From: Verrucomicrobiota bacterium
GTDB taxonomy: Bacteria; Verrucomicrobiota; Verrucomicrobiia; Limisphaerales; UBA1096
NCBI GenBank assembly: GCA_030749225.1
Contig: JASMKO010000025.1
Coordinates: forward strand, 1 to 64,000
Length of the DNA: 64,000 nt
Reading direction: 5' to 3'
Shown: in pieces, positions 1 through 7,503 of the stretch
Numbering within the stretch: position 1 is the stretch's first letter
Layout: each line of letters opens with the position of its first letter
Program-made: the position numbers and the translations under genes
Notes under the pieces: generated by a model
Told to the model about the DNA's origin: nothing
The model's input: the letters and a program-made list of their open reading frames with translations, nothing else
Database searches by the model: none

Positions 1-737
1 CCGCTGATGCGGTTGCGCCCGCCCACCGTCGTGCAGTGGCAGGCGTAATTCGCCCAGACCGCGCGCACCGCGCCGTTCGCATCGCGTGCCGCCAGCACCG
101 GGAGGCTGTGGTCGACCGGGGCGTTCCGTTGATGCCCAAACCCGGCCCAGTTTCCGCCGTTGATAACCCGCCGGTTGCCGCCAAACGTTGCGCGGCCCTG
201 CGCCCACTCAAGCGTCATCGGCTTGCGGCGAGCCAGGGCCTCGGCGACGGCGCGCTCCATTTTGTCGACGGCAAACTGCGTGTACGCCTCAACCCGTTGA
301 TCCTGCTCCGGGGTCGTGCGGCCTTTCCAAACGATCGGCGCGTAACCGACCAACGTCGGGGCGTTGTGCGTGTGCGTGGTCGCGACGACGAGCCGATCGG
401 CCGCCACGCCGCGCTTGGCCAAGCGCTTGGCCAAGCGATCCGTAATCGCCTGAGTCACGCCGCAGTTGTCGAGCACGACGATTACCGCCGGCTTGGTTTG
501 GCCGATCACCATCGACCGCACCCAGAGCGGCGTGTCGACACCCTCGTGCTCGGTCGTTCGCCCCCCGTAACCGGCCAGCAACACCGAATGCGTCGGCGTC
601 ACGTCCACCTTAGACACGCCGACGGAAACAGTCGCCCCCTGTGCGATGAACGTCGCCAGCAGAAAAACCAGCGCGCTTAGAAACCGGTGTACCGTTTGGA
701 AACAACACGCAGTCAACTGTTGAACGGCATGAGGCAT
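1..737 (-). CDS. Neutral/alkaline ceramidase-like secreted protein (partial, runs off left edge)
   Basis: This gene is absent from the ORF track because its stop lies outside the window. Reading the minus strand from the ATG at 737 gives a hydrophobic signal sequence (FLSALVFLLATFIAQG), then VSKVDVTP, an AGYGGR stretch, VVLDNCGV and TTHTHNAP. This matches the N-terminal domain of the neutral/alkaline non-lysosomal ceramidase family, often seen as a 'hypothetical' secreted hydrolase in Planctomycetes and Verrucomicrobia. The THTH segment belongs to the metal-binding region; YACHCTTVGG follows near the edge. About 245 residues are visible. The tandem palindrome pair at 413-436 encodes RLAKRLAKRG inside it. 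The true substrate (ceramide or another amide) is unknown. The plus-strand ORF 36-680 is its shadow. Confidence 0.72.
   Translation of the reverse strand, partial: MPHAVQQLTACCFQTVHRFLSALVFLLATFIAQGATVSVGVSKVDVTPTHSVLLAGYGGRTTEHEGVDTPLWVRSMVIGQTKPAVIVVLDNCGVTQAITDRLAKRLAKRGVAADRLVVATTHTHNAPTLVGYAPIVWKGRTTPEQDQRVEAYTQFAVDKMERAVAEALARRKPMTLEWAQGRATFGGNRRVINGGNWAGFGHQRNAPVDHSLPVLAARDANGAVRAVWANYACHCTTVGGRNRIS
413..436. repeat. Tandem pair of the GCTTGGCCAAGC palindrome
   Basis: Two exact 12-nt copies lie back to back (413-424 and 425-436) inside the ceramidase-like gene, where they encode LAKRLAKR. It is the only exact tandem pair in the window; imperfect pairs occur near 11738, 30533 and 33980. 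Confidence 0.9.
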
Positions 738-753
738 TTCATGTTGCTGTTTG

Positions 754-864
754 TCAATTGGACTGATCCCACAACCGGTACGGATCGTCCAGCCGCTGCA
801 TCTCCTTGCGCAGCAACACCTCCATCTTCCTGTTTTTGGCCACGTATTTGGAGTCGGTTTCATC
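754..864 (-). pseudogene. 3'-terminal remnant of an S1 sulfatase gene
   Basis: Between the ceramidase-like gene and the first sulfatase the minus strand still encodes a sulfatase-type C-terminus. It reads DETDSKYVAKNRKMEVLL, then a segment with LDDPYRLWDQSN, then a stop at 754-756. This aligns with the ends of the 860-2431 protein (KEMEALLLTEMRRLDDPYRLWNQP) and the 3881-5371 protein (LNDPHRLWNQPKD). Upstream the frame is closed by a stop after about 36 codons, and no sulfatase body precedes it. It is best explained as the leftover of a tandem paralogue removed by deletion or recombination. It overlaps the 860 stop codon in a different frame. Confidence 0.7.
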
Positions 865-2431
865 GACTATTTTTCAGCCGCTTCTCCTTGCCTGCTCTCT
901 CCTTGATTTTCGGAGTCTCAAGTCCGTCACCCGGCTGGTTCCACAGACGGTACGGATCGTCGAGGCGGCGCATCTCGGTTAGAAGCAAGGCCTCCATTTC
1001 CTTAAGCTTTACGGCGTACTTTGGATTGTCCGCAAGATTCAGCTGATTCTGGGTTGGCTTGATCCCGGTCAACGCAACCACCTTGGGATCGTGATGTTCC
1101 TTGATAAACTCGTGGGGGTTTTCCTTTAAGTTGAAAAGCTGTGTGTGCTGGACTCCAGTCTTCTCCACTTGATACTTCGTCAATTTCCAGTCGCCCTGTT
1201 TGACACAGCGCGTCCCCGGCCGTCCGCCGCCACAGTACACCCCGTAAAGAGTATCACGCACCGTTTCCTTTTTATCCAGAAGCACTCGCTTGAAGCTGAT
1301 GCCTTCCGAGGTAGCTGGAGCTGGAATATCTGCCAAATCACAAATCGAGCCCAGCACATCAAGTAGATAAATGTTTCCCTTCGCCCGCGAGCCGGCCTTG
1401 ATGCCCGGCCCCTTCGCAATAAATGGTATGCGCCAGGTATGATCGTACATATTCTGCTTGCCCTGCAGACCGTGACGACCGATGGCCATGCCGTGATCGG
1501 CGGTGTAAAAGATGTATGTGTTGTCCAGTTCGCCCATCACCTCGAGTTTCTTGAGCACCCGCCCGATCTGGATATCAATATTCTCACTACAGGCAAACTG
1601 GCGACCGATCTCGTTGCGAATGGTCCGTTCATCACGCCGCTCCCAAACGCCCTTCACCCCTACTTCATCACGCACGGTGGTGTGACCGTGGTCAAAGGGA
1701 TGCTTGGGCAAATAATTGACGGGCAAGGCAGGTTGTTTGGGATTTGCCGATGGCAGCGTCGTTTTATCTTCATGATTCACTGCACCGTACTTTGCCAGCA
1801 GCTCTGGTTTGCCATCACGCACATCATGCGGATGGGAAAAGCCGAAATAAATCAGGAAGGGATCTGTATCCTTAGCTGATTCGCGTTCATTCAGATAGTC
1901 CAGGACTTGATCGGCGTGCCAGGCGCTTCCCCTTTCATCCGAAGCTCCGCGCCGGGTTCCATCTCGTCGCACTTGAAATAGTTCGTTGGCGTCCGCATAG
2001 CTGTTGCCATTTTTACAGGTGCGCATGGTGTCGTAGCCGGCGCGGTTGAACACGGCGGGCAGGGTGAACTTGGCCAAGCCCGGCGGCACGTGGATGGGGT
2101 TGTTCACGTGAGGGTTCATCATTCGACCAGGCTTATCCGGGATGTGCCACACGGTGCGGCCGCTCATGATCATGTGGCGCGAGGCAGTGCATACACCTCC
2201 CACCCACGAGCCCATCTGGTACGCGCCGTCGATCACCATGCCCTGGGCCGCAAGACGGTCGATGTTCGGCGTTTGGAGCGCCGACCTTGGGTTGTAAACC
2301 TTCAGGTCAAACGGCGACTGGTCATCGGCAATGATAAACAGAATATTAGGTCGATCCCCAGTTAACGCAGCGGTTTTCGCTGTGTTCGGGACAAGCAATG
2401 ATGCCAGCAGAATGGTCAGCGTGATTCTCAT
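860..2431 (-). CDS. S1-family sulfatase, secreted (paralogue A)
   Basis: About 523 residues. The ATG at 2431 gives a clean signal peptide (MRITLTILLASLLVPNTAKTAA), so the extra 27 residues of the ORF track were dropped. RPNILFIIADDQ carries the N-terminal metal-binding Asp pair. The formylglycine motif is CTASR (Cys about 81) followed by SGRT. YTADHGMAIGRHGLQGKQNMYDHTW is the C-terminal metal-site region. The family consensus is C-x-P-S-R, so the Ala at the Pro position is unusual; activation by the formylglycine-generating enzyme is plausible but unproven. It lies 4 bp after the 2436-3836 sulfatase and is probably co-transcribed. It is a close paralogue of 3881-5371. The C-terminus carries a Lys/Arg-rich tail (KIKERAGKEKRLKNSR) that the paralogue lacks and that may result from the rearrangement behind the 754-864 remnant. 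Substrate unknown. Confidence 0.85.
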   Translation of the reverse strand: MRITLTILLASLLVPNTAKTAALTGDRPNILFIIADDQSPFDLKVYNPRSALQTPNIDRLAAQGMVIDGAYQMGSWVGGVCTASRHMIMSGRTVWHIPDKPGRMMNPHVNNPIHVPPGLAKFTLPAVFNRAGYDTMRTCKNGNSYADANELFQVRRDGTRRGASDERGSAWHADQVLDYLNERESAKDTDPFLIYFGFSHPHDVRDGKPELLAKYGAVNHEDKTTLPSANPKQPALPVNYLPKHPFDHGHTTVRDEVGVKGVWERRDERTIRNEIGRQFACSENIDIQIGRVLKKLEVMGELDNTYIFYTADHGMAIGRHGLQGKQNMYDHTWRIPFIAKGPGIKAGSRAKGNIYLLDVLGSICDLADIPAPATSEGISFKRVLLDKKETVRDTLYGVYCGGGRPGTRCVKQGDWKLTKYQVEKTGVQHTQLFNLKENPHEFIKEHHDPKVVALTGIKPTQNQLNLADNPKYAVKLKEMEALLLTEMRRLDDPYRLWNQPGDGLETPKIKERAGKEKRLKNSR

Positions 2432-2435
2432 GGTT

Positions 2436-3836
2436 TTATTTTCCCTTTGGATGATTTTTTTTCTTGTTTCGTTTCTTTGTCCCAGGGTTGCCAAACGGAA
2501 GTTCAAATTCATTTTTCTGCACCGGGCCCGGTGTGCTGCGACCGCGGTCGATGTAGCTTTCCATCAACTTCTCCAATCGCCCCGCCACTTCCCTATTGGT
2601 CTTGGAACGATCCCTGGTTTCACTGATGTCGTCCTTCAAGTTATAGAGCTCGCGGTTGCCATTTCGATACATGACGAGTTTCCAAGGCCCCTGTCGAATC
2701 GCCAGGCCAGCAGGTGCCTGATGTATGGTCGCCTCACGAATTGGCCCGGTCGTTTCCCCCAGCAAACCGGGCAAGATACTCACGCTGTCCTCGGCAGCGT
2801 CGGGGGGTAAATCATCACCAAGGATGTCCGCGCAAGTCGCAAAAAGATCGTTCAGGCAAATGACATCGTGGTTCACGGAGCCAGCGTTAATTTTACCCGG
2901 CCAACGGGCCACGAAAGGTTCCCGATGACCGCCTTCGTAAATGCTGCTTTTGGCCTCCCTCAATGGAGGATAAGGCCGTCTGGCCGCGCCGTTGTCGCCG
3001 GTGGCGATCATCAGGGTATTCTTTTCCTGACCGGTTCGTTTCAGCGCATCCATGATCTGGCCGAGCATGTGATCACCCTGATAGACCCAGTCGGCGTATT
3101 TGCCTTCCTTGCCAGTGATCCCGCTCTTGCCGACGAACTCGGCCGCCGGAACAATCGGACTGTGGGGCGGGCACATGGGGAAATAGAGGAAAAACGGCTT
3201 CTTCTCCCTGGAACGCTCCTCGATGTAATTGACGGCTTTGCCGATCATCAGCGGCTGGTTCTCGACCCCCTTCACGTTGGCCACCACCCTGTCCTGTTCA
3301 ATAATCGAGCCGATGTTGCGGGCGTGGGTAAAGCCATAGAAATAATCAAAGCCGAGCGCGTTGGGGCCATCGATGAGCCGGGCGCCAATGGGAAGCTGCT
3401 TTTCCGTGCCCGGCATTCCATCGACCCACTTCATGCCTAGATGCCACTTGCCGATGCAGGCGGTGTGGTAGCCACGGCCCTTAAGAAAGGAGGCCACTGT
3501 GAGACGCCTCTTGGGAATGATCGGGGCAGAGTAGGTCTTCAGTACACCGAATTGACCGATTCGGCATGGATATCGGCCGGTCAGCACACCGTAGCGCGTC
3601 GGTGTGCAGTTGGCGGCCGCCGAGTGCGCGTCGGTGAAGAGCATCCCTTGCTTGGCCAAATGGTCTATATTCGGAGTTTTAAAAGGGGAATCAGCACGGT
3701 AAGACGGTGGTTGCCCGTAGCCCATGTCATCAAATAGAATGAATACAATATTTGGCCGTTCGTTTTCGGTTTTGGCCAATACGTCCAACGGTTGGCACAA
3801 GAAGACTATGCATAACAGTATGGCTTGCTTCATCAT
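2436..3836 (-). CDS. S1-family sulfatase, secreted (arylsulfatase A/GALNS-like)
   Basis: About 466 residues from the ATG at 3836 (an ATG also at 3833), giving signal peptide MKQAILLCIVFLCQPLDVLA. RPNIVFILFDDMGYG is the metal site, CTPTR (Cys about 77) with LTGRYPCR is the formylglycine motif, GKWHLG is present, and ATGDNGA holds the later metal ligands. The CxPTR form and the DDMGYG motif are typical of arylsulfatase A / N-acetylgalactosamine-6-sulfatase-like enzymes, which act on sulfated glycans; the real substrate cannot be read from sequence. The tail is Lys-rich (TKKRNKKKNHPKGK). LAKQG in the N-terminal half is one of the palindrome-derived stretches. It sits between the two paralogous sulfatases 3881-5371 and 860-2431. 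Confidence 0.85.
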   Translation of the reverse strand: MMKQAILLCIVFLCQPLDVLAKTENERPNIVFILFDDMGYGQPPSYRADSPFKTPNIDHLAKQGMLFTDAHSAAANCTPTRYGVLTGRYPCRIGQFGVLKTYSAPIIPKRRLTVASFLKGRGYHTACIGKWHLGMKWVDGMPGTEKQLPIGARLIDGPNALGFDYFYGFTHARNIGSIIEQDRVVANVKGVENQPLMIGKAVNYIEERSREKKPFFLYFPMCPPHSPIVPAAEFVGKSGITGKEGKYADWVYQGDHMLGQIMDALKRTGQEKNTLMIATGDNGAARRPYPPLREAKSSIYEGGHREPFVARWPGKINAGSVNHDVICLNDLFATCADILGDDLPPDAAEDSVSILPGLLGETTGPIREATIHQAPAGLAIRQGPWKLVMYRNGNRELYNLKDDISETRDRSKTNREVAGRLEKLMESYIDRGRSTPGPVQKNEFELPFGNPGTKKRNKKKNHPKGK

Positions 3837-3880: not shown

Positions 3881-5371
3881 TCAGTCCTTTGGCTGATTCC
3901 ACAGACGATGAGGATCGTTGAGTCTCTTCATCTCGGCATACAGCAAAGTCTCCATTTCCTTCAGCTTGTCAGCGTGAGTGGGATCGGTAACCAAGTTGAT
4001 TTGATTGGGTTTCGGCTTGGCCCCGGACAACGCCATCACTTGGGGCTCGTGGTTTTGCTGAATGTACTCGTGGGGATTCTCCTTCAGGTTGAAAAGCTGG
4101 GTTTCCCTTACTCTGCCATCCATGACGTCGTACTTGATCAACTTCCAGTCGCCTTTACGGACCGAGCGCATACCCGGCTTGGTGCCGCCGCAGTAGGCGC
4201 CGTAGAGCACCTCGCGGATCGTCTCCTTCTCACCCAGGAGAACTGGCTTGAAGCTGATCCCCTCACAGGTGGCCGGCGGCTTGATCCCGGCGAGGTCACA
4301 GAAAGTGGCCATGACATCGAGCAGGTAAACATTTCCGGGCGCCCGACTGCCGGGCTTAATCCCGGGACCTTTCACGAATAGCGGAACTCTCCAGGTATGT
4401 TCATAGAGGTTCTGCTTGCCCTGCAATCCGTGACGACCAATGGCCATCCCGTGGTCGGCGGTATAAAAAACATAGGTGTTCTCGAGCTCACCCATGGCCT
4501 CCAATTTCTTGAGCACCCGGGCAACCTGATGGTCGATATTCTCGCCACAAGCCAATTGCCGCCCGATCTCGTTGCGAATGGTCACCTCGTCCCGACGCTC
4601 CCACACCCCGCTGACCGACACCTCATCACGCAAACCGGGATGGCCGTGGTGAAAAGGATGCTTGGGCAACCAGTTTAAAGGCAGCTTCGGGGCTTTGGCG
4701 TTGGTTGGCGGCAGGGACTTACGGTCGCGATGGTTCACTGCCCCATACTTCTTTAGTAGTTCGGGCGTGCCGTCTCGGGTATCGTGTGGATGGGAGAAGC
4801 CAAAGTAGATAAAGAAGGGATCCTCGTCCTTGGTCTTTTCCCTCTCGGAGAGATACTCCATCACCCGATCGCCGTGCCAACCACTGCCCGTCTCATGCGT
4901 GCCGCCCCGCTTGCCCGCGTCATGGCGGACAGTGAACTGGGCGTTGGCACTCTCGTAGCTGTTTCCTTTTTTGCAGGTCCGCATGGTATCGTATCCCGCA
5001 CGATTAAAAACCGCAGGAAGAGTATTATTCAGGATGTCCTTGCCGCCGGTGATGCCTTGCTCACGTTTGAGATGTTTTTTACCACGTGGCGGAAGATGCC
5101 ACAGCGTACGCCCGCTCATGATCATGGTTCGGGAGGGGGAACATACCGCCCCGGACATCGAGCCCATGTGATAAGCCTGATCGAAGGTCATGCCCTCCGA
5201 TGACAGATTGCCGATCGCCGGTGCGATCAGAGGTGAGGACGGGTTGTAGGACTTAAAGTCGAACGGAGACTGGTCGTCGGCTATGATGAACAGAACATTC
5301 GGTCGCTTGACTTTGGCCTGTGAAACCATCGCAAGGGAACCTACGGCGAGTGCGAAAAGCAGGCGTTTCAT
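3881..5371 (-). CDS. S1-family sulfatase, secreted (paralogue B)
   Basis: 496 residues, starting at ATG 5371 with signal peptide MKRLLFALAVGSLAMVSQAK. RPNVLFIIADDQSPFDFKSYNPS is the metal-site region; the formylglycine motif is the canonical CSPSR (Cys about 77) followed by SGRT. YTADHGMAIGRHGLQGKQNLYEHTW is nearly identical to the same segment in the 860-2431 gene, so the two are duplicates that now flank a different sulfatase. The C-terminus LNDPHRLWNQPKD probably shows the ancestral end of this subfamily. It lies 12 bp downstream of the jelly-roll protein gene, consistent with one transcript. Substrate not assignable. Confidence 0.86.
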   Translation of the reverse strand: MKRLLFALAVGSLAMVSQAKVKRPNVLFIIADDQSPFDFKSYNPSSPLIAPAIGNLSSEGMTFDQAYHMGSMSGAVCSPSRTMIMSGRTLWHLPPRGKKHLKREQGITGGKDILNNTLPAVFNRAGYDTMRTCKKGNSYESANAQFTVRHDAGKRGGTHETGSGWHGDRVMEYLSEREKTKDEDPFFIYFGFSHPHDTRDGTPELLKKYGAVNHRDRKSLPPTNAKAPKLPLNWLPKHPFHHGHPGLRDEVSVSGVWERRDEVTIRNEIGRQLACGENIDHQVARVLKKLEAMGELENTYVFYTADHGMAIGRHGLQGKQNLYEHTWRVPLFVKGPGIKPGSRAPGNVYLLDVMATFCDLAGIKPPATCEGISFKPVLLGEKETIREVLYGAYCGGTKPGMRSVRKGDWKLIKYDVMDGRVRETQLFNLKENPHEYIQQNHEPQVMALSGAKPKPNQINLVTDPTHADKLKEMETLLYAEMKRLNDPHRLWNQPKD

Positions 5372-5383
5372 TTTTTGAATGAA

Positions 5384-6049
5384 TTATTTTCCGTGTAGTT
5401 TGATGTTGTCGAAGTCGTTCATGTCGTCGAACGACCCGATACCGATGCGACCTTTGCCATAGGTTTTTTCGATGACTCTCATATGAGGTTTTTTCATGTC
5501 ATCAAAGTAAACGTCGATCGTTCCCTTGGATGAGTCGCGAACGACTTTGACCTTGTGCCACGTCTCGTTTTTCCACGGCGTCTTGTTTTTGTTGTCGGTC
5601 ATGGCTTTTCGGGGGGCATCCTTGACGATCATGATCTGCCCGCTGTGCGGATCGGGGTTCGCGCCGAAGTGGCAGTAGTAAAAATGCTCCGCATCCTGCC
5701 AGTTGAAAAACACGCAGCAGTCGCGGTGTCCGCCGGTGTCCTTCGTGCTTTTCACGTCGAATGTCAGTTCGAAGTCGGCTACTTCAACCCCCTTGATGAG
5801 CGCGACGTGGTATGGGCTGCGAACCTTTGGTTTGTAGTCACTATTGCGCCGGTTGATCCCAAAGACATGGTTGCCATCGACTTTTCGGTGGGTCCAGCTC
5901 TTGGCATCCGTAACTTCCCAGCGTTTGTGACCTTTTTCAAAATCCTCCTCAAAAATGAGAGGTAGCTTTTCTCGCTTCGTATCCTCCGCTTGGCCAAGCG
6001 GGGCGACATAAAAAAGGGCGGCAATTAAAAACAGGGTAGAAACTCGCAT
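5384..6049 (-). CDS. Secreted concanavalin/jelly-roll-like domain protein
   Basis: About 221 residues from ATG 6049; the ORF track's extra 56 residues read through non-coding sequence. The signal peptide is MRVSTLFLIAALFYVAPLGQAE. The body looks like a LamG/DUF1080-type beta-sandwich: IFEEDFEKGHKRWEV at the start, FELTFDVKSTKDTGG, then HFYYCHFG, TWHKVKVVRD and IGIGSFDDMNDFDNIKL at the end. Proteins like this accompany sulfatases in PVC-phylum operons and may bind or cleave glycans. No catalytic residues can be assigned, so a carbohydrate-binding role is a guess. The palindrome CGCTTGGCCAAGCG (5987-6000) falls inside the signal-peptide coding region (PLGQAE). Confidence 0.6.
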   Translation of the reverse strand: MRVSTLFLIAALFYVAPLGQAEDTKREKLPLIFEEDFEKGHKRWEVTDAKSWTHRKVDGNHVFGINRRNSDYKPKVRSPYHVALIKGVEVADFELTFDVKSTKDTGGHRDCCVFFNWQDAEHFYYCHFGANPDPHSGQIMIVKDAPRKAMTDNKNKTPWKNETWHKVKVVRDSSKGTIDVYFDDMKKPHMRVIEKTYGKGRIGIGSFDDMNDFDNIKLHGK

Positions 6050-6108
6050 GCGCTGCAGCGTAGCGAACCGCGATGGCACTGCCACTAAAAAACGGAATCC
6101 AAGTTGGT

Positions 6109-7503
6109 TTATCGGCGGAGGTCTGAGACTGCGTTGGCTGCTTGGCCGAGCGCGATGCGGGCACGGAGTTTTGAGAGGGTTGGCACCATGGAGGGTTGCT
6201 TGGCCAAATTGGTCCACTCGTTAGGGTCGTAGTCGTGGTTGTACAACTCCTCCGATCCGTCGGCGTAGCGAATGTAACGCCAACGCTTGGTTCGGATGGT
6301 GTGGTTGTCCTTCCCGTAAGTGCTGATAGCCGGGTTGGGCCACAGCGCGTGCGGATCGCGGAGCAGAGGGACAGCGCTTGGTCCGTCGCATTTGGTTTTG
6401 TTCTTCAGCCCACAAAGCTCCAACAAAGTGGGATAGAGCACGGTCAAGTCGACCGGTTGTTCACAGCGGGAACCGGGCCGAGTCACACCCGGTGCAGAGA
6501 TGATGAACGGAACATGATTAGTTTTTTCCCAGAGCGCAAACTTCTCGATGTGATCTTTTTCGCCGAGATGAAAACCGTGGTCGGACCAAAGGACAACGAC
6601 TGTGTTTTTGGCAATGGGGCTGTTGTCGAGCGCGTCCAGCAGTCGACCGATTTGTGCGTCGGCAAAGAGGCAGCATGCGGCGTAGGCCTTGAAGAAGTCC
6701 TCGTATGAGCCAGGGATCTTTCGATCGAGTTCACTCATGGCGCTCCAGAACCACTTGGTGCGCTTCATCAGGGCGGTTGCCCCGGAAGGGAGATCGTCCC
6801 AGTCGTTCTCCAGTCGCTTCGGTTTCGGTATGGGTGGCAGGTTTTCGTGATACTTGGGGGGCGTAAAAAACGGTGAGTGCGGCTTAAAGATGCCGCATGC
6901 GAGGAACAACGGCTTATCCTTGGGAGGGTTTTTAAGATTGCGAATGCAGTATTCGGTCGTGCGGAAATCGATCGTGTCTTTTTCGTTGTCCGGCCAAACA
7001 CCCCAGTCGGTGTTACGCGATCCGTATTCCGGTGCCTTGTTGAGTTTTTTGGAAGGCATGTTCTGCGGTGCCATGGGTAAGAAATCATCAAACGATGCCT
7101 TATCGTGAAATGCACCGTTGAGTTTGTGGTGAAAAATCTTTCCTGCGCCGTGCACGGCATAGCCGGCGGCTTGAAACTGCTGCATGATGGTCCTCCGCTT
7201 GGGTAGTGCCTTCCGCCAGTCGCTGTTATTTTGATAAACGCCAGTCGTACTGGGCCGCAGTCCTGTAAGGGTGGCCACACGCGAGGGATTGCATGCCGCA
7301 GAAATACAATAAGCGCGGGTGAACAGCATGCCACGCTTGGCCAAGCGCTCGAGGTTGGGAGTCTTGATGGGCGACTTGGAATCGAGCAGGGAAATGCTGT
7401 CGTTCATGTCATCAATGACGATAAACAACACGTTTGGCTTGGCCTCCTTCCCCCCTAACAGTGTGCAGTTGAACACAAAAATGAGCAAGGCACGCAGAAT
7501 CAT
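6109..7503 (-). CDS. S1-family sulfatase, iduronate-2-sulfatase-like
   Basis: About 464 residues from ATG 7503, giving MILRALLIFVFNCTLLGG as signal sequence. KPNVLFIVIDDMND is the metal site. CNPSR (Cys about 71) with LTGLRPSTTGVYQN is the formylglycine motif in the form typical of iduronate-2-sulfatase-like enzymes. LWSDHGFHLGEKDHIEK and LWEKTNHVPF follow the same family pattern. This suggests a 2-O-sulfated uronate substrate, as in glycosaminoglycan- or ulvan-type polymers; that step is inference. LERLAKRGML is encoded by an exact palindrome copy at 7334-7347. The gene lies 8 bp after the 7512-8951 sulfatase. Confidence 0.86.
   Translation of the reverse strand: MILRALLIFVFNCTLLGGKEAKPNVLFIVIDDMNDSISLLDSKSPIKTPNLERLAKRGMLFTRAYCISAACNPSRVATLTGLRPSTTGVYQNNSDWRKALPKRRTIMQQFQAAGYAVHGAGKIFHHKLNGAFHDKASFDDFLPMAPQNMPSKKLNKAPEYGSRNTDWGVWPDNEKDTIDFRTTEYCIRNLKNPPKDKPLFLACGIFKPHSPFFTPPKYHENLPPIPKPKRLENDWDDLPSGATALMKRTKWFWSAMSELDRKIPGSYEDFFKAYAACCLFADAQIGRLLDALDNSPIAKNTVVVLWSDHGFHLGEKDHIEKFALWEKTNHVPFIISAPGVTRPGSRCEQPVDLTVLYPTLLELCGLKNKTKCDGPSAVPLLRDPHALWPNPAISTYGKDNHTIRTKRWRYIRYADGSEELYNHDYDPNEWTNLAKQPSMVPTLSKLRARIALGQAANAVSDLRR
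7334..7347. repeat. Exact CGCTTGGCCAAGCG palindrome inside a sulfatase
   Basis: It encodes LAKR in LERLAKRGML, a segment where sulfatases normally have a similar helix (compare DHLAKQG in the 2436-3836 protein). It shows how the repeat can sit in conserved coding sequence without harm. Confidence 0.9.

Follow-up and report, generated by a model that had tools for sequence, protein, structure and literature searches.

Pseudogene relicts of displaced paralogues are an established and ordinary kind of genomic remnant. In aquatic bacteria, complete gene clusters for surface structures are exchanged by homologous recombination, in the form of replacement flexible genomic islands (Lopez-Perez et al., 2014; PMC4033161). 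Furthermore, S1-type sulfatases are discussed for marine Verrucomicrobiota as degraders of sulfated methyl pentoses (PMC8857213). The locus described here lies at the beginning of a 64,000-nucleotide stretch of DNA, which we refer to as the window. It is a clear and layered instance of known events, in which gene-block recombination and pseudogene relicts combine in ordinary gene turnover; a literature search on this exact phenomenon returned nothing specific. The features of importance are given below, where P1, P2 and U are members of one sulfatase family and U stands for untailed.

1-737, minus strand: 5' portion of a neutral-ceramidase-like gene whose orthologue matches PF04734; the gene continues on contig C97
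1-3650, no strand: the window's part of a tract of about 3.8 kb, 97-98% identical to L060/G013
754-873, minus strand: sulfatase 3'-end relict (the scrap), an open frame of 39 codons plus stop, in which a start is unlikely
754-827, minus strand: 3' part of the relict, derived from U, with 75 of 77 aligned nucleotides identical to the 3' end of the intact U in L077
818-827, minus strand: junction interval AGATGGAGGT, ten bases that the two parental types share
828-862, minus strand: 5' portion of the relict, which resembles the older, decayed relict of G006, G011, G014 and G009 and is unlike U
860-928, minus strand: charged tail at the C-terminus of P1, GDGLETPKIKERAGKEKRLKNSR, an old feature that P1 orthologues share
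860-2431, minus strand: intact sulfatase P1 (PF00884), of the tailed clade
2436-3836, minus strand: chimeric sulfatase S2436, with an L060-like body and a G017-like N-terminal part, at the left end of the putatively imported tract
3640-3700, no strand: approximate position, within S2436, of the left breakpoint of the L060-like tract
3881-5371, minus strand: sulfatase P2 of the same family, in its own clade with G017 and not the source of the scrap

As in replacement flexible genomic islands (PMC4033161), near-identical blocks are found here in otherwise diverged genomes, at one chromosomal place and with differing cargo between shared flanks. Unlike those islands, in which complete clusters are exchanged, the tract at this locus is small and ends inside genes, namely S2436 and the ceramidase-like gene, and the relict 3' end is itself the place of a crossover. 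The likeness to ordinary pseudogene relicts is similarly partial, as the scrap is truncated, start-less and decaying independently in sister species, with an intact copy elsewhere, but appears to have been partly rebuilt by a second recombination into a composite of two sulfatase ends. With regard to the enzymes, P1, P2 and S2436 match PF00884, as S1-type sulfatases do (115 bits for P1 and 129.5 bits for P2, with a curated cut-off of 25), and P1 and P2 are predicted S1 sulfatases by this match; P1, P2 and U matched no NCBIfam equivalog above its cut-off. All genomes compared are draft metagenome assemblies, with one genome per species, and the window is a contig end.

The minus-strand translation of the scrap is KIVDETDSKYVAKNRKMEVLLRKEMQRLDDPYRLWDQSN, followed by a stop. 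Its frame differs from that of the gene at 860-2431, and it begins, in effect, at the stop codon of P1 (860-862). In a tblastn search of the whole genome with P1, positions 754-855 matched residues 469-502 of P1 at 56% identity (E 1.7e-6); an HMM of the C-terminus of the sulfatase family scored the scrap at 56.5 bits (E 1e-16), and the alignment score of its peptide lay 17-27 standard deviations above those of its own shuffled copies. The first-pass annotation had recognised a C-terminal scrap of the same sulfatase subfamily past the stop at 860, which these searches bear out, with 39 codons in place of the 36 it had counted; when aligned to the C-termini of the family, the scrap falls within this family and not with a different protein. 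The significant homology is to the C-terminal part of an intact gene whose remainder is absent, and no convincing start codon for the scrap was found. Nor is it a short gene conserved in frame: among relatives, the open frame is broken by a frameshift in G006 and by a deletion in G011, and of three clear codon differences between the window and G013, two alter the residue. Very probably, the scrap has no function and is what remains, as a 3' end, of a third family sulfatase (U) whose body is gone from this site.

In a comparison with about 100 relatives, the scrap ends in 23 residues (MEVLLRKEMQRLDDPYRLWDQSN, then the stop) that recur without change at the C-terminus of a single protein, encoded in L077 of G008, a genome of the same genus as the window genome. 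At the DNA level, the window read from 827 to 1 is 95% identical to L077/G008 over 827 nt, comprising the end of U, the intergenic stretch and the ceramidase-like gene. In L077, U is intact (6001-7494, 497 aa) and is followed by the same ceramidase-like gene, so that the whole parent is found at the homologous place, and in the tree P1, P2 and U form three separate clades. Taken together, the identical C-terminus, the 827-nt match, the intact U and the three clades identify positions 754-827 as the true 3' end of the third paralogue, still located before U's own downstream neighbour. The proposal that a lost sulfatase of this family left the scrap behind is thereby upheld, and the third paralogue it implies was encountered in a related genome. 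P2 was rejected as the source, as it shares 17 identities with the scrap compared with 24 for U and belongs to a separate clade. The window genome contains two full members of the family, P1 and P2, which are 64% identical; no third full copy was found elsewhere in this genome, which is only about 80% complete, the next match being at 40%. More generally, the window genome (G000) is that of a very sulfatase-rich organism, with about 120 sulfatase-like matches to one query in 3.1 Mb, some genes being counted repeatedly.

The charged tail of P1 had been noticed in the first-pass annotation and was taken there as a product of crossover. The tail is indeed present, but its proposed origin was rejected, as tails of the same kind are conserved in P1 orthologues which lack the scrap, both within the genus (G017 and G007) and outside it (L066-L075). 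These orthologue tails start with DGLxxP (DNLxxP in one) and are rich in lysine and arginine.

A sulfatase relict is located at exactly this spot in six species, namely the window genome, G013, G006, G011, G014 and G009. In the last four, it precedes genes other than the ceramidase and has decayed, by an internal 36-nt deletion (G011), a +1 frameshift (G006) or substitutions; the example of G014 reads KTVDETDSKHVTKSRKMEVLLLLEVDRQNDPYRLSHKLLK, followed by a stop. Over the 35 nt of 828-862, the window matches the decayed relicts at 32-34 positions and U at 17; counted over the first 36 nt after P1, the figures are 33-35 and 18. Past this switch, it matches the decayed relicts at 25 of 41 (G011) or 42-46 of about 75 positions (the others), versus 75 of 77 for U. 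The scrap of the window is a composite of the 5' part of an older relict and the 3' end of U, and in both the window and G013 the 3' two thirds of the relict are swapped for the U end and the ceramidase. With about 65-70% DNA identity to any relative, the decayed relict is too diverged for its parent to be named, the DNA slightly favouring untailed relatives with no clear winner.

The genes which follow the relict differ between relatives. G006, G011, G014 and G009 share the order P1, relict, dehydrogenase, PVC and cupin, in which the post-relict genes are a 3-hydroxyisobutyrate-dehydrogenase-like gene and a large DUF7133/cytochrome-c gene. The order is P1, relict, ceramidase and cupin in G013 and the window, and intact U, ceramidase and cupin in G008 and G020, while in G017 and G007 P1 lies directly before the cupin gene and the relict is absent. 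The dehydrogenase and ceramidase arrangements rejoin at one cupin-like gene, which was named by eye and is without a Pfam match. In sister species, L062 8321-13005 and L060 8314-10380 represent alternative gene sets in the same sulfatase-to-cupin slot. Branching in the tree of P1 is ladder-like, (((window,G013),G011),G014),G009, with support of 94-100, which makes the ceramidase neighbour the derived condition. On the left side of the scrap, G013 shares mostly 82-99% identity with G014 or G009, and its identity with G008 is about 70% across most of the sulfatase cluster; on the right side, throughout the ceramidase and cupin genes, its identity with G008 is 88-96%. Judged from identity profiles, this pattern is that of an imported tract with its left crossover within the relict. 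No genome was found in which U or another whole sulfatase precedes the dehydrogenase gene, the only candidates being paralogues at 52-64% elsewhere, and a direct ancestor for the first step of the history given below was thus not encountered.

A second boundary lies within the window itself. Over its first 3650 nt or so, the window shares 97-98% identity with G013, and identity then drops to about 70%; the drop occurs inside S2436, within about 3640-3700, and from there the window resembles G017. At the other end, the window start shares an overlap of 141 identical nt with C97, a contig of this genome on which the ceramidase gene continues, followed by cupin and TIM-barrel genes. On C97, the G013-like identity lasts for about 300 nt, of which about 160 nt lie beyond the overlap, and the remainder of the ceramidase gene is only about 70-85% identical. 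These two drops thus delimit a tract of about 3.8 kb which begins and ends within genes and which carried the body of S2436 and P1, together with the relict and the first part of the ceramidase gene. The window genome, and not G013, would be the recipient, because S2436 looks chimeric only in the window. The overlap between the window and C97 suggests that the assembly broke within the ceramidase-like gene, possibly owing to coexisting alleles with and without the imported tract. With respect to the same gene, the TGA of P1 overlaps an ATG (ATGA, 860-864) in the ceramidase frame. In the window and G013, no stop interrupts this frame across the scrap and on into the ceramidase-like gene (723 aa in L060); since the homologous start of the ceramidase-like gene lies further in, this open frame is probably due to chance.

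We have high confidence in a history of three steps as a whole, consisting of the formation of the relict, the import of the U end and the transfer of the tract of about 3.8 kb. In the first step, before the six related species split, a sulfatase downstream of the P1 position would have lost all but its 3' end; the relict is found at the same spot in all six, and the older sulfatase was probably displaced by the S2436-P1 pair. In the second step, a tract from a G008-like chromosome, comprising the 3' end of U and the ceramidase-like and cupin-like genes, would have entered the ancestor of the P1 blocks of the window and G013, with its left crossover in the relict, and would have replaced the dehydrogenase and the large cytochrome-c-domain gene. 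The identity switch at 818-827 and the order of the tree are observed, and the transfer would have run towards the relict-bearing ancestor. In the third step, the window genome would have received the tract of about 3.8 kb by homologous recombination from a G013-like donor; identity is 97-98% inside versus about 70-83% outside, with ends inside genes, and the window is the presumed recipient. The suggested direction of the second and third steps is based on parsimony and on the chimeric state of S2436 in the window only, and RecA-type homologous recombination is the presumed agent.

The first-pass annotation had favoured a crossover between tandem sulfatase copies which deleted a gene body in place. 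Such a deletion could have occurred in an ancestor which carried P1, the old relict and a complete U one after another, recombination between the relict end and the U end having removed the body of U, and it would be in keeping with a junction in sequence homologous between relict and U and with the existence of tandem family members in the order (G128). However, a P1-U tandem was not found in 21 genomes of the genus and 79 further loci, the window copy appears to have arrived on a tract, and a deletion alone leaves unexplained that G013 is G008-like beyond the U end, through the ceramidase and cupin genes. The identity profiles point to imported tracts instead, and we consider deletion in place unlikely. 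An in-register tandem crossover was also rejected, as it would leave one chimeric gene and no scrap, whereas P1 is complete and followed by a separate relict; a relative with P1 adjoining U was not found, and P2 represents a third clade.

A partial duplication of P1's own 3' end, to which the 56% identity between the scrap and the P1 C-terminus might point, is highly improbable, as the scrap is far nearer to U (75 of 77 nt, the same stop and no tail) and the downstream DNA continues as in the U locus; this origin is ruled out on DNA for 754-827, and the DNA of the older relict tends toward untailed relatives, not P1. Scarcely credible are, lastly, a short functional gene or programmed-frameshift extension of P1, for which the frame is open over 39 codons in the window and G013 but lacks a good start, is shifted in G006, has lost 36 nt in G011 and has two of three clear window-G013 codon changes altering the residue, and an assembly chimera, conceivable in a metagenome assembly with a contig end close by, as the same junction is present at 97% identity in a separate assembly (G013/NYYJ01000069.1).

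The three-step history, which we prefer to these explanations, leaves knowledge of the mechanism unchanged, and its importance lies in a legible record of change in the sulfatase-rich clusters of marine Verrucomicrobiota. In this record, a gene would have been displaced with its end left behind, the end would have taken up foreign sequence, and a sister species would have gained the result on a small tract. It also advises caution, in that tandem duplications and losses cannot be counted from the gene order of one genome, because the apparent loss in the window seems to have been imported ready-made. It is possible, although doubtful, that relict 3' ends in the sulfatase slot act as recurrent crossover anchors for the modular swap of downstream cargo between species. 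Each replacement might then leave a short homologous end for later recombination, the cargo being either the dehydrogenase and cytochrome-c-domain genes or the ceramidase; one instance of a crossover in a relict is seen here.

A second, independent relict of the same kind is found in G093 (L048), from another family of the order, where an intact U-type sulfatase is followed 200 nt further on by RNPKCAAKRKEMEALLHKEMVRLDDPFPLRDWPVK and a stop. From this peptide onward, G093 is 86.8% identical to L082 in DNA over about 1.3 kb, into the same arylsulfatase gene, and in L082 the matching end belongs to an intact sulfatase which precedes the arylsulfatase gene. Among the loci compared with the C-terminal HMM, such relicts occur at only two places, the P1 slot and G093.
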